This document shows, in pieces, positions 36,487-46,566 of a stretch of 64,000 nucleotides of DNA (its first letter is position 1; each line of letters begins with the position of its first letter). Position numbers and translations under genes: made by a program. Location of the stretch: positions 124,001 through 188,000 of the forward strand of contig CALWSU010000001.1 of NCBI GenBank assembly GCA_944384295.1. The letters are read 5' to 3'. This DNA comes from an uncultured Lachnospiraceae bacterium (GTDB lineage Bacteria; Bacillota; Clostridia; Lachnospirales; Anaerotignaceae). The notes under the pieces were generated by a model, which was not told where the DNA came from, searched no databases, and saw only the letters and a program-made list of their open reading frames with translations.

Positions 36487-37770
36487 TCAATGTTCTAATA
36501 AAGGCATTAACTGATTTTTACAAATCCAAGCAATATGATATTGTTTTCTCACAATTGTTTTTGCATGCAAGCATTGATCCTCTCGCATTGCATTGACAAT
36601 ATTTTGCCCATGTTCTTCATAATACTGCGCTTCGGAAGGGTGATACGTTTCTTGTGTATCATACCCAAAATTTTTTGCGTCCCAACGCATAAAATAAGCC
36701 CCTAATATGCCGCCTAATTCTTTTAAAGCTGGTACCGCTTCATTCAACACAATAAAATTCCCTCTGCTTGCTGCTTCTAACACCGTAAGCCCAAACGATT
36801 CCGAAAAAGAAGGGCAGACAAACAAATTAGACAATGTAAACAATTCTAAAACACCTTGTCTGGGAAATCCATCTGGATACCCAATATCAGACGTGAATAA
36901 TAAATCACCATTGCGCAAACCAAATTTTTCCCCTTCTATCCGAATCATTTCTTTATAGGCTTTACTGGAAATATCTGCACTTGGAAAATCACAGAAAATG
37001 ACTTTTGTGCTTTGTTCAGTTTTCTTTTGTATCGCGCCTGCCAATGCTGCTACTTTCTCAAATTTTTTCCCAGTTGTAAGCCTTGCAGGATATACCATAA
37101 CAATCTGCGCTTGCAATAAATCAATATGCTTTGCTACTTGTTGTACCGCTGGACTCATTGATTCTAATAAAGGTAAAGAATTATATACCACAGCGCACTT
37201 TCCTTCTGGAATATCATATTGCTTTGCTAGTGCAGAAATTCCCGAATATGTCGGATATACAAATTTTGTTTTTGGCATATCGGTATATCTTGCAGAAAAC
37301 GGAAATTCCATATATTGTGGTCTATTGACTGGTAAAGAATGTGTAAATTCTAAAAAACGCACATGTGGCAATTCTTTTTGTGCCTCACGAATGGCGATAT
37401 TATGCACCAAATGCCAGCCTTGGTATAGTATATCATGCATAATACAAACATCTACGTCTTGCAAATGTTTGACAAAATCCTTTGCTATGACTTCTACTTC
37501 TGCATAAAAACTATCATGCACTTGTCCGGTTGGCTGCGCATAATCATGCCAAATAATTGGATTTCCATGACATGTATTTGTGATTTTGATCCATTCGATT
37601 CGTGCATCACAAAATATACCTTTTCTTTCCTCATCTGGACAACTTTCACTCACCAATAACTTTGGCGAAATTCCAGCCTGCAACAACATTGCAATTTGAT
37701 CTGCTACAACATTGACCAAAGAATATGTGCTGGATAGTCCATTAAACATAGTCAATATGGCAACTTTCAT
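36487..37770 (-). CDS. Glycosyltransferase, GT4-like
   Basis: The 427-aa GT-B fold protein has a C-terminal nucleotide-sugar binding domain with VYPARLTTGKKFEKVAALAG and the family signature CPSFSESFGLTVLEAASRGN. The N-terminal acceptor domain includes IMHDILYQGWHLVHN. The acceptor and sugar are unknown. No neighbouring polysaccharide genes are present; the nearest gene in the same direction encodes the choice-of-anchor surface protein, and surface glycosylation is only a possibility. Confidence 0.85.
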   Translation of the reverse strand: MKVAILTMFNGLSSTYSLVNVVADQIAMLLQAGISPKLLVSESCPDEERKGIFCDARIEWIKITNTCHGNPIIWHDYAQPTGQVHDSFYAEVEVIAKDFVKHLQDVDVCIMHDILYQGWHLVHNIAIREAQKELPHVRFLEFTHSLPVNRPQYMEFPFSARYTDMPKTKFVYPTYSGISALAKQYDIPEGKCAVVYNSLPLLESMSPAVQQVAKHIDLLQAQIVMVYPARLTTGKKFEKVAALAGAIQKKTEQSTKVIFCDFPSADISSKAYKEMIRIEGEKFGLRNGDLLFTSDIGYPDGFPRQGVLELFTLSNLFVCPSFSESFGLTVLEAASRGNFIVLNEAVPALKELGGILGAYFMRWDAKNFGYDTQETYHPSEAQYYEEHGQNIVNAMREDQCLHAKTIVRKQYHIAWICKNQLMPLLEH

Positions 37771-37805: not shown

Positions 37806-38114
37806 CCCCATAAGAAAAAAGTATCTCAGGGTGTCGAAAAAGTCAACACCCTGTCGTCAAAGGCTCATTTCATTCAAGCCTTTGACGAGTAGACAGAAGT
37901 ATAAAGCCCAAAGTTCTATCGGCTAAAAGCCTTGAAACTGCGGATTGAATTTGTGAAACGACACACCGCAAAGAAGTGCGGACAGCCATTTATGGCTGGC
38001 GTTTGCGCAGCAAACGTGTTGACATTCGTTTCCCAAACCCTTCCGCGTTTTTGAAAGAAGTATAAATCTAGTTTTTTGATAGGCTGATTTGTTATCTTAT
38101 TTTTTCTTATGGGG
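37806..38114 (-). terminator. Terminator stem of the choice-of-anchor gene, interrupted by the structured element
   Basis: CCCCATAAGAAAAAA (37806-37820) and TTTTTTCTTATGGGG (38100-38114) are perfect 15-bp inverted arms separated by 279 bp that hold repeat copy 1. On the minus strand the far arm is followed by AACAATTTT. A terminator of very similar arm sequence but with a 6-nt loop occurs at 62739-62776, so these arms look like a terminator whose loop was invaded. Confidence 0.6.
37826..38087. repeat. Dispersed structured non-coding element, copy 1
   Basis: The 262-bp element starts TCAGGGTGTCG and ends near CTGA. It is closely related to 46269-46566. It contains successive hairpins: AGGGTGT/ACACCCT; an 11-bp stem AGCCTTTGACG type; CCGCA/TGCGG (37966-37981); CAGCCAT/ATGGCTG; and CGTTTGC/GCAAACG (38000-38016). 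It lacks about 33 bp present in copy 2. It lies inside a split terminator stem (37806-37820 and 38100-38114). It has no open frame of note. I do not recognise the family. Confidence 0.85.
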
Positions 38115-38133: not shown

Positions 38134-39378
38134 TTATTTTTTGCAACTACAGCTTTGGAACAAATCTATTTTATCTTTCAATACCATTTCCAATTTGGAA
38201 ATCGAGTTGACCATAGATTCCACAGATTGATTGGCTGACAGAATTTCTTGGTGTGTTACATCTTCAAAAGAAAATATTTTTTGTAGCTTTTCACCTTCGG
38301 CATTCAGAATATGCGCTAAGGCAGCCTGCTGCAACGCTACAGATTCAAACACATCAGAAATCGCCTGATTTCGCGGCAAAATGGGCGCTGTGGTTGTGCT
38401 GGTTGTTGTGGTGGTCGATGTAGTTGTACTGGTTGTTGTGGTGGTACTAGTTGTCGTAGTACTTGTGCTTGTGGTACTGCTGCTCGTAGTACTGCTGCTC
38501 GTAGTACTGCTGCTTGTAGTACTTGTCGTGCTAGTACTTGTTGTAGTACTTACAGGCAAACAACTTGTTGCTTCTGGAAGTTCCCCTATAAATAACTCAT
38601 TATGACTTTCTGCATTGCCAGTAAAGGAAGCAAATACAATATTCCCGTTGATTTGGCTATAAGTTGTATTCGCTGCTGCAAATGGCGCCAATACAGAGCC
38701 ATAAATGGCAGTTGTACTATTTGTCCAAGTCAATGCCTCAGGAAAGTTCCATACAATTTTTCTTGCATTTTCTCTGGTTGCTACAATACCATTACGAAAG
38801 ATTTGATAACTGCCAAACTGTATATTGGTTCCTCTCACATTGATCAATATGGTTGCATTCAATGGCGCCACAATATTGATGCCATTCAATTGGTTCAAAG
38901 ATATACCTGTACCATAAATATTGCCGCCGTCAAAATTGAAAATATTCAAATTTTCATTGATACCAGTCAATGTCAATTGATTGAATAATACGGCTCCACT
39001 ACCATTTGCTGCCAATGTATTCCAAAAGGTAGAAGCACATTTCAAATATCGTTCTGCTTCCACAAAATCAATGGGATTTCCTACCACCAGAGAACCATTG
39101 GGATTTCCCATAGTATAATTTATGATAGTACTGGTTGGGCTAATGACAGTATTCCCACTGGCATTGGAACCATTTGTTACATCAACATTTCCTTGTACGA
39201 CAAAAGACGGATCTATATTTGCTGGCGGCAAAGGCGATATATTCGCTCCTACTCCATAATTACTCAATGTTGCATTGCCACCAACTGCCACCCTACCTTC
39301 TGCGTCTGTATTACTCAAACTCATATTGCCCAATACAAACACATTATACAAACTTGCCAAACCGAAATTTGTTGCCAT
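38134..39378 (-). CDS. Choice-of-anchor A domain protein, probable spore-surface protein
   Basis: The 414-aa protein starts at ATG 39378, 7 nt after AGGGGG. Residues 5-270 form a choice-of-anchor A type beta domain (LGNMSLSNTDAEGRVAVGGN, VVGNPIDF, YGSVLAPFA). A linker of about 55 residues is made only of Ser and Thr. The C-terminal 80 residues contain VALQQAALAHILNAEGEKLQ. Unlike usual members it has no signal peptide, so it is not exported by Sec. The C-terminal domain is repeated in the neighbouring gene. A spore-coat or exosporium location is inferred, not shown. Confidence 0.82.
   Translation of the reverse strand: MATNFGLASLYNVFVLGNMSLSNTDAEGRVAVGGNATLSNYGVGANISPLPPANIDPSFVVQGNVDVTNGSNASGNTVISPTSTIINYTMGNPNGSLVVGNPIDFVEAERYLKCASTFWNTLAANGSGAVLFNQLTLTGINENLNIFNFDGGNIYGTGISLNQLNGINIVAPLNATILINVRGTNIQFGSYQIFRNGIVATRENARKIVWNFPEALTWTNSTTAIYGSVLAPFAAANTTYSQINGNIVFASFTGNAESHNELFIGELPEATSCLPVSTTTSTSTTSTTSSSTTSSSTTSSSTTSTSTTTTSTTTTTSTTTSTTTTTSTTTAPILPRNQAISDVFESVALQQAALAHILNAEGEKLQKIFSFEDVTHQEILSANQSVESMVNSISKLEMVLKDKIDLFQSCSCKK
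38476..38520. repeat. Three tandem 15-bp repeats in the Ser/Thr linker
   Basis: Three copies of ACTGCTGCTCGTAGT (one with a single change) encode SSSTT units. They sit within a longer low-complexity run of Ser/Thr codons (about 38388-38553) that is likely to vary in length between strains. Confidence 0.85.
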
Positions 39379-39437
39379 CTTCATTCCCCCTAGAAAAATA
39401 CGTTTCATTGCTACGTTGTTTTATGCTTGTACCAATA

Positions 39438-39473
39438 ATGCAGATGAAACCTCCAAAGAAGTTCCATCTGCAT
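39438..39473 (-). terminator. Hairpin after the small paralogue
   Basis: ATGCAGATG-type arms (39438-39450 and 39461-39473) pair over 13 bp with one mismatch. No T-run follows, so it may be a weak terminator or processing site between the pseudogene and the choice-of-anchor gene. Confidence 0.5.
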
Positions 39474-39487
39474 ATCATGGGACGAGA

Positions 39488-39787
39488 TTAAATCGTATTG
39501 GTAGGTGGTACTTCTTCTTCACATAAACAATTTTCATATGTAGCCAATTTGGATTGCAAAATCATTTCCAGTCTTGTAATGGCATTCACCATAGACTCTA
39601 CAGATTTATTTGTCGCCAACAAAACTTCTGGTGTAACATCTGGCATTGCCACAACTTTCTGGATTTTTTCGCCTTCTGCATTCAAAATGTGTGATAATGC
39701 GGTTTCCTCCAATGCAACAGACTGAATAATATCTGTGATTGCTTATGTTCTTGTAGTGCTGCTTGCTGCGATAACTGGCATACCCAT
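39488..39787 (-). pseudogene. Small spore-domain protein interrupted by a TAA codon
   Basis: From ATG 39787 (GAAGGGAAG 8 nt upstream) the frame reads MGMPVIAASSTTRT and then meets TAA (39743-39745). It continues in the same frame with AITDIIQSVALEETALSHIL, NAEGEKIQ and onward to 39488. The downstream part matches the C-terminal domain of the 38134-39378 protein, where the equivalent position is Gln in RNQAISD; a CAA to TAA change explains the stop. Intact length would be 99 residues. A TTG at 39712 could restart a 74-aa product. Confidence 0.75.
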
Positions 39788-39841
39788 ATTGCATACTTCC
39801 CTTCTTTATTTTGATATTTAGATTGAGCTTACGCTCTTGTA

Positions 39842-39868
39842 TATACTATGTCGCATCATAAAATCTGT
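39842..39868 (-). promoter_or_regulatory. Candidate sigma-K/sigma-E type sporulation promoter
   Basis: On the minus strand AC (39867-39868), a 16-nt spacer and CATAGTATA (39842-39850) fit the AC-N16-CATAnnnTA pattern of mother-cell sporulation promoters. It lies about 55 nt upstream of the small interrupted gene. The assignment is by pattern only. Confidence 0.45.
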
Positions 39869-40005: not shown

Positions 40006-40170
40006 TTAATATCCGTATTCTTTTGCTATGTTTTCTAGTTCCTCTTTGGAAGCATTACGAATACGACTTTCATCTAAAATCATAGCTGGCATACCAGCAA
40101 ACGAACCTGCATATACATCGGATAATAGTTTTTTTCTTAATTCCTCTGTTTCTTGGTATTTTTCCTCCAT
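40006..40170 (-). CDS. Conserved-looking small protein, 54 aa
   Basis: ATG 40170 follows AGGAGGG at about 6 nt and the frame runs 54 codons to TAA. The protein is charged and helical, with a Gly/Ala-rich middle (YAGSFAGMPAMILDESRI) and the ending ASKEELENIAKEYGY. No known function. It lies 81 nt after the aldolase gene on the same strand and precedes a terminator, so it is probably the last gene of that unit. Confidence 0.8.
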   Translation of the reverse strand: MEEKYQETEELRKKLLSDVYAGSFAGMPAMILDESRIRNASKEELENIAKEYGY

Positions 40171-46237: not shown

Positions 46238-46269
46238 ACAGAAGGGAAACGCAGATATTTCCCTTCTGT
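46238..46269 (+). terminator. Hairpin after thiE, adjoining the structured element
   Basis: ACAGAAGGGAAA pairs with TTTCCCTTCTGT over 12 bp. No T-run follows because repeat copy 2 begins at the end of the stem; the matching T-run is found beyond the element after a second copy of the right half (46569-46593, then TTTCTTTTC). Confidence 0.7.
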
Positions 46270-46566
46270 CAGGGTGTCGAAAAATACGACACCCTGTCGT
46301 CAAAGGCTCATTTCATTCAAGCCTTTGACGAGTAGGCAGAAGTATAAAGCCAAAGTTCCATCGGCTAAAAAGCCTTGAAACTTTGGCTTTTCCTCGTCGG
46401 AAATGAATTCCGACTGCGGATTACATTTGGGAAACTACACACCGCCAAGAAGGGCGGACAGCCATTTATGGCTGGCATTTGCGCAGCAAATGTGTTGACC
46501 ATCGTTCCCCAAGCCCCTCCGCGTTCTCGACAAAGTAAAAAATGTACTTTTTTACAGTCTGACTGA
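46269..46566. repeat. Dispersed structured non-coding element, copy 2
   Basis: The roughly 298-bp element is related to 37826-38087 and is more complete. It holds AGGGTGTCG/CGACACCCT, the shared 11-bp stem, GCCAAAGTT/AACTTTGGC, GTCGGAA/TTCCGAC, CCGCC/GGCGG (46442-46457), CAGCCAT/ATGGCTG, CATTTGC/GCAAATG (46476-46492) and GTAAAAAA/TTTTTTAC. It is flanked by a 25-bp direct repeat with one mismatch (46245-46269 and 46569-46593). It lies between converging thiE and panC. Confidence 0.85.

Follow-up and report, generated by a model that had tools for sequence, protein, structure and literature searches.

A candidate A-ENA spore-fibre cassette with a choice-of-anchor A adhesin as predicted terminal subunit in an uncultured Lachnospiraceae bacterium

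We analyzed a 64,000-nt stretch of DNA from an uncultured Lachnospiraceae bacterium (GenBank assembly GCA_944384295.1, contig CALWSU010000001.1, positions 124,001 to 188,000), hereafter referred to as the window, in which coordinates are counted from the first letter. On its minus strand lie an interrupted gene that we identify below as an A-ENA pilin gene (39488..39787), a choice-of-anchor A adhesin gene with a C-terminal A-ENA domain (38134..39378, 414 aa from the preferred start) and a glycosyltransferase gene (36487..37770; PF00534, 31.6 bits against a cut-off of 26.4), which together make up a conserved cassette. A sigma-K-like promoter (39842..39868, minus) precedes the pilin gene, and a hairpin (39438..39473, minus) lies between the pilin and adhesin genes. 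The adhesin and glycosyltransferase genes are separated by a dispersed repeat of about 300 bp (37822..38104), which is not part of the cassette; at least 70 matching pieces, counting the repeat itself, were found in the same genome, where 40 of 123 candidates were scored, and a second copy lies in the window at 46269-46562. No PDB relative of the glycosyltransferase was found by sequence at E 0.001. Upstream of the pilin promoter, a 54-aa ORF (40006-40170, minus) had no Pfam or NCBIfam match over its first 52 residues and no counterpart in the other cassette loci.

The adhesin reading frame is open up to an ATG at 39408 (38134-39408, minus), and we preferred the ATG at 39378, which has GGGGGA 6 nt upstream. 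A preliminary description of this DNA had proposed a choice-of-anchor A protein that lacks a signal peptide and begins directly with its domain, and both points held. The protein passes the curated cut-off of TIGR04215 (choice_anch_A; 190.5 bits against a cut-off of 29, over residues 21-275 of the 424-aa reading) and is thus a member of that family, and it scores 176.2 bits with Pfam PF20597 (pAdhesive_15; cut-off 23.8); the domain begins about 10 residues past ATG 39378, and no signal-like segment was found at the N-terminus, where hydropathy over 12 residues peaks at 1.77 within the first 40. From these two matches and from Foldseek we delimited an ice-binding-like adhesive domain (38584..39348, minus), followed by a pure Ser/Thr stalk (38389..38550, minus; residues 277-330 of the 414-aa form), for which S+T fraction and length were also taken over 23 A2 rows. 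Its 54 residues agree with the linker of about 55 noted earlier. The C-terminal A-ENA domain (38137..38373, minus) lacks the M-G-M-P tail described below, and neither a sortase motif nor a membrane tail was seen in the protein. In the predicted model of the whole adhesin (mean pLDDT 72), the best Foldseek matches were the ice-binding proteins 7bwx, 5uyt, and 5b5h (E 1.6e-4 to 9.2e-4, query TM 0.26-0.31), and the C-terminus was modelled as a two-helix hairpin (pLDDT about 54-63 in that part).

The C-terminal domain had also been described as common to the neighbouring gene, and we found 51% identity between the two over 81 aa (E 6.7e-23). Searches of Pfam and NCBIfam gave no match above cut-off for this domain. 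Against the PDB, a profile of 13 copies of the HILNAEGEKLQ domain (A1) found a single sequence at E <= 0.001, namely 9ihh, "Ex vivo spore-silk A-ENA fibers" (E 1.5e-22), which the adhesin profile also matched (E 1.4e-13). We therefore read the neighbour as an A-ENA pilin gene and the adhesin as a protein that ends in an A-ENA domain. The 9ihh subunit belongs to the same domain family (profile positions 2-76 of 77), and its chain of 101 aa is close to the standalone gene in size; unlike it, the window domain also occurs fused behind a choice-of-anchor A head, and the standalone gene of the window is interrupted. A relative's pilin (L027) is predicted to fold as a two-helix hairpin (mean pLDDT 78); with this model Foldseek gave no match at E <= 0.001, and 9ihh was not among the matches listed. 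A literature search with the exact letters ILNAEGEK found no paper, and one on A-ENA and spore silk had no A-ENA paper among the matches listed; the authors of 9ihh may already describe such fusions.

The interruption of the window pilin gene, overlooked in the preliminary description, is an in-frame TAA (39743-39745, codon 15) after MGMPVIAASSTTRT. Open standalone copies of about 100 aa exist in relatives; the window copy is not open, and no second A-ENA pilin was found in the same genome (91.5% complete). Because of this interruption, we filed the adhesin as an A-ENA-domain protein rather than as a pilin, and this genome possibly makes no A-ENA fibre. The fibre is probably not made, unless the stop reflects a variant of the strain or of the assembly.

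Among the matches listed, the same adhesin head was present in at least 30 other loci (73-83% identical over the best tblastn piece), a count that leaves out L054, where only a 47-residue head remnant was found. The glycosyltransferase gene reported near the adhesin proved to be a regular neighbour: a gene of the window type adjoins the adhesin in 29 of these 30 listed loci (66-77% identical), the sole exception being L044, which has a contig edge there. A same-strand pilin ORF was recognizable upstream in 19 of the 30 listed adhesin loci, four of them with interrupted pilins (L023, L045, L050, and L090), and was not seen in the other 11, to which contig edges and true absence may both contribute. 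Cassette carriers among the matches listed included Flavonifractor, Pseudoflavonifractor, Butyricicoccus, Angelakisella, and Lachnospiraceae MAGs, and open sets of all three genes occur in the cultured Butyricicoccus pullicaecorum DSM 23266 (L029) and Flavonifractor sp. An112 (L038). Since window-like domains served as queries for these loci, the counts should not be read as natural frequencies. The adhesin was absent from all six same-genus genomes, and the aldolase, kinase, small ORF, and IMPACT-like neighbours of the window had no match at E 1e-5 in cassette loci (flanks of up to 5 kb). Glycosyltransferase identity to the window was 66-78% outside two loci at 58%, and in the glycosyltransferase tree the window neither joined its family member L003 nor had a supported sister. 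Recent horizontal transfer was rejected on composition, as cassette G+C (0.31-0.63) was near flank values in most loci.

The A-ENA domain itself was detected in 41 of 295 genomes of the order and 34 of 398 of the phylum, and a search of named records (best 80 matches) gave 76 loci. In total, 127 loci held 182 different reading frames, which a rule sorted into 70 with a standalone, 69 with a C-terminal, 40 with an N-terminal, and three with a middle domain. Partner domains in 52 chosen proteins included DUF11 (11), SdrD_B (8), collagen (6), SpaA (2), and BclA_C (1). Signal-like segments were found in 0/60 pilins, 0/33 N-fused, and 3/63 C-fused proteins. An M-G-M-P-like motif precedes the domain in 63/70 standalone, 35/40 N-fused, 0/3 middle, and 4/69 C-fused frames (background, 7/790 windows). 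The C-fused group includes at least two pilins with a long open upstream stretch (L033 and L041, re-sorted for the tree), and several standalone frames without the motif are interrupted genes. In F-ENA of Bacillus thuringiensis, N-terminal hooks link the subunits, according to the part of PMC11952670 available to us. By analogy, we infer that C-fused proteins would accept but could not donate a tail, and hence would mark one end of the fibre. An adhesin whose A-ENA domain lacks the tail would join the fibre at one end only, and we take it as a terminal fibre subunit, placed at either tip or base. A recurrent protein of about 350 aa (L056, L073, L076, L086, and others), often encoded divergently, has a 'YKGMAFEGCFFYLT'-like motif close to the N-terminus and ends in an A-ENA domain; A-ENA fibres in general could be anchored by it.

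The promoter of the window pilin gene reads AC-N16-CATAGTATA, and we take the sigma-K consensus to be AC-N16/17-CATANNNTA. Its presence had been claimed earlier; within the window the first pattern is weak alone (4 matches vs 2.1 expected), and it is the relatives that make the claim convincing. Within 150 nt upstream, the consensus was found for 22/61 pilins, 13/63 C-fused, 9/38 N-fused, and 1/3 middle frames, compared with 5/414 control genes from these loci and a rate of 0.5-0.9% in shuffles (pilins vs control genes, Fisher 2.8e-17; the promoter samples, like those for the hairpin, are related sequences, so that p-values overstate independence). Among 23 such sites ahead of pilins, 19 begin 71-88 nt from the start codon, and that of the window lies at 81 nt. 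A sigma-70-like pattern was not enriched in pilins (21/61 vs 156/414), and a sigma-E-like pattern, whose -10 overlaps that of sigma-K, was mildly raised (12/61 vs 32/414). The site in the window precedes the pilin gene, and none was found directly ahead of the adhesin gene. We further compared the junction between the two genes in the window and in 16 of 19 relatives with both genes (n = 17; L032, L045, and L090 left out). A stem of at least 9 bp was present in 17/17 junctions compared with 103/414 control upstreams, followed by a T-run in 16/17 by a lenient rule (not L031), and folding energies were 2.4 to 7.7 standard deviations below shuffles; the window hairpin has a 16-bp stem and a poor T-run. 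A sigma-K-like site was found in 5/17 junctions exactly and in 12/17 with at most one mismatch (controls, 5/414 and 34/414). This arrangement of hairpin and second promoter fits the production of much pilin and little adhesin; the window has no second site.

The same genome encodes a SigK-like factor (NF004471, 293 bits, above the cut-off of 252; TIGR02846, 284 bits, below the cut-off of 298.65), SigE (NF006158, 395 bits), SpoIVA, and Spo0A. Co-occurrence of A-ENA with SpoIVA ran in the right direction and was not significant in either the order (34/41 vs 180/254 genomes without A-ENA, p = 0.13) or the phylum (32/34 vs 306/364, p = 0.14), with G280 taken as positive on a weak match, and was dropped as proof of spore association. 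Nine A-ENA genomes had no SpoIVA, seven of which encode Spo0A, while G117 and G163 (81% and 73% complete) carry A-ENA domains and matched neither protein. The available part of PMC12921279 describes Bacillus ENA subunits as made late in sporulation in the mother cell and suggests sigma-K control.

In a tree of A-ENA domains (76 columns, 81 rows), those of the adhesins formed one clade (99/96) nested among the pilins, with the mosaic genes of L003 and L048 beside it, which fits an adhesin that may have arisen from one fusion event with a pilin domain. In six loci (L003, L047, L048, L053, L061, and L065), an A-ENA gene abuts the glycosyltransferase gene without an adhesin, and its domain is a mosaic with a pilin-like front and an adhesin-like end; switch points differ between these genes, with more than one alternation in L065 (13 pilins and 13 adhesins served as references; L056 and L086, with a glycosyltransferase 58% identical, left out). 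The pilin tail lies in the aligned stretch in five of the six and further upstream in L065. At L054, which keeps the head remnant, the A-ENA gene is a plain pilin. Because six adhesin-less loci hold pilin/adhesin mosaics, we infer that the adhesin may have been looped out repeatedly by recombination between two A-ENA copies, and an adhesin lost in this way would be dispensable for whatever keeps the pilin. L065 was rejected as a fusion that would prove interaction between glycosyltransferase and pilin: its glycosyltransferase match covers 288 of 427 residues and its A-ENA part is mosaic, so deletion is likelier. Ser/Thr residues in pilin tails (mean 4.5 in 20 pilins with a glycosyltransferase in the locus vs 2.8 in 38 without) were also discarded as a glycosyltransferase target, this comparison being lineage-confounded.

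Choice-of-anchor A proteins usually carry an export signal and a surface anchor. In contrast, the window adhesin has no such signal, and its "anchor" is a spore-fibre subunit domain. A contrast set of 29 other choice-of-anchor A loci of the order (longest frame taken unchecked) included 24 frames uncut at the 5' end. Eight frames had no signal-like segment (L133-L136, L143, L148, L154, and L161); L133-L136 are a separate cysteine-rich type, L143 is probably a wrong frame, and L148, L154, and L161 are ambiguous. The four cysteine-rich proteins (order family f6) form a further choice-of-anchor A type that lacks a signal-like segment and is a candidate spore-surface protein; the one at L134:1366-3090 has a Cys/Pro-rich stalk (CPxCP repeats), a Cys-containing C-terminal part, and no A-ENA domain.

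The system resembles F-ENA, F-Anchor, and F-BclA as described in the available part of PMC11952670, in which a small self-assembling subunit is accompanied by dedicated stalked proteins bearing either its domain or a docking peptide. However, by the same partial source the F-ENA subunit is a DUF4183 protein with a beta-barrel neck, whereas A-ENA here is a predicted helical hairpin, and F-ENA has collagen and a C1q-like head where the window adhesin has a Ser/Thr stalk and an ice-binding-like head. Pfam matches of the adhesin and of the pilin part after the stop, taken up to E 1, did not include DUF4183. In Bacillus velezensis (L131, labelled plasmid pDMB05-1, 149465-157680), two A-ENA-domain proteins, one "hypothetical" with an Asp/Pro-rich tail and one collagen-like with an N-terminal A-ENA domain, flank a glycosyltransferase gene. 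Its product is SunS-like (under the family cut-off) and has no similarity to the window glycosyltransferase, and no choice-of-anchor A gene was found in the stretch shown. The part of PMC4319854 available to us, on collagen-like proteins of FZB42, names a cluster (RBAM_007740-007770) for which we made no connection to the A-ENA domain, and this source was set aside.

We consider it likely that the pilin, adhesin, and glycosyltransferase genes form an A-ENA endospore appendage cassette with the adhesin as predicted terminal subunit. The spore-surface role without export proposed in the preliminary description is supported, at the level of sequence, by homology to 9ihh, the sigma-K-like promoters, the missing signal-like segment, and the sporulation genes. 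Its idea of a mother-cell protein at the spore surface gains from the appendage-subunit homology, but since the domain is that of an appendage subunit, "coat" should read "fibre". In relatives with an intact pilin, transcription by late mother-cell sigma-K would be strong for the pilin and weaker for the adhesin, which would be read past the terminator-like hairpin and often from the second sigma-K-like promoter. No export would be involved: small helical pilins produced in the mother cell would polymerize on the spore as the conserved N-terminal M-G-M-P tail of each latches onto the next subunit. The adhesin, as terminal subunit, would display its ice-binding-like head on the Ser/Thr stalk, which the glycosyltransferase probably O-glycosylates. 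More tentatively, and at somewhat short of an even chance, this would be a widespread three-gene spore-fibre cassette of Clostridia, with an ice-binding-like adhesin on a glycosylated stalk derived from one fusion, an M-G-M-P tail that sets the fibre end, and repeated deletion of the adhesin that left chimeric pilins.

Within the cassette, the adhesin might instead sit at the spore-proximal end, its A-ENA domain taking the tail of the first pilin and its choice-of-anchor A domain holding the spore surface. In F-ENA, according to the available part of PMC11952670, it is the anchor in which a stalk is followed by a C-terminal ENA domain, and the tip protein attaches through its N-terminal part, which makes this placement a serious rival to the tip. 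The tail motif missing in C-fused and kept in N-fused proteins points the same way, as does the mean pairwise identity of the adhesin heads, which at 79.7% is unusual for a host-facing adhesin. Against it, the set persists without an adhesin in the six loci that keep a mosaic A-ENA gene with a pilin tail, and the Ser/Thr stalk and glycosyltransferase fit an exposed position better; we regard a basal position as rather doubtful. A further question is whether the window set still works at all. The in-frame TAA, the dispersed repeat between the adhesin and glycosyltransferase genes, the weak T-run, and the missing promoter motif ahead of the adhesin would suit a decaying relic with a dead pilin and a drifting adhesin and glycosyltransferase, and across 40 loci a simple rule flags the glycosyltransferase as broken or partial in eight and the pilin as interrupted in four, although L047 among these four was open on inspection and contig ends and MAG errors may contribute. 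Both the window adhesin, which is 66-75% identical to its relatives, and the glycosyltransferase have fully open reading frames, and decay is a real possibility that we hold to be somewhat less than probable. Finally, many proteins of this family in the order seem to be exported, with a signal-like segment in 16 of the 24 uncut frames, and the window adhesin might be a surface protein of vegetative cells that leaves by non-classical export; its missing signal-like segment, the sigma-K-like promoters, and the spore-fibre homology make this very improbable.

Many gut Clostridia probably pass between hosts as spores, whose means of adhesion are poorly known. Our findings support a specific form of the earlier spore-surface proposal, namely a cassette for A-ENA appendages whose terminal subunit would be a choice-of-anchor A protein, and add the M-G-M-P tail rule, the hairpin between pilin and adhesin, and six pilin/adhesin chimeras that point to repeated adhesin loss. 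If this reading is true, cultured species of Flavonifractor, Butyricicoccus, and Angelakisella would have a named fibre subunit along with candidates for the adhesin and for the glycosylating enzyme, the choice-of-anchor A family would gain a new type of anchor, and the polarity of the fibre would become testable from sequence.
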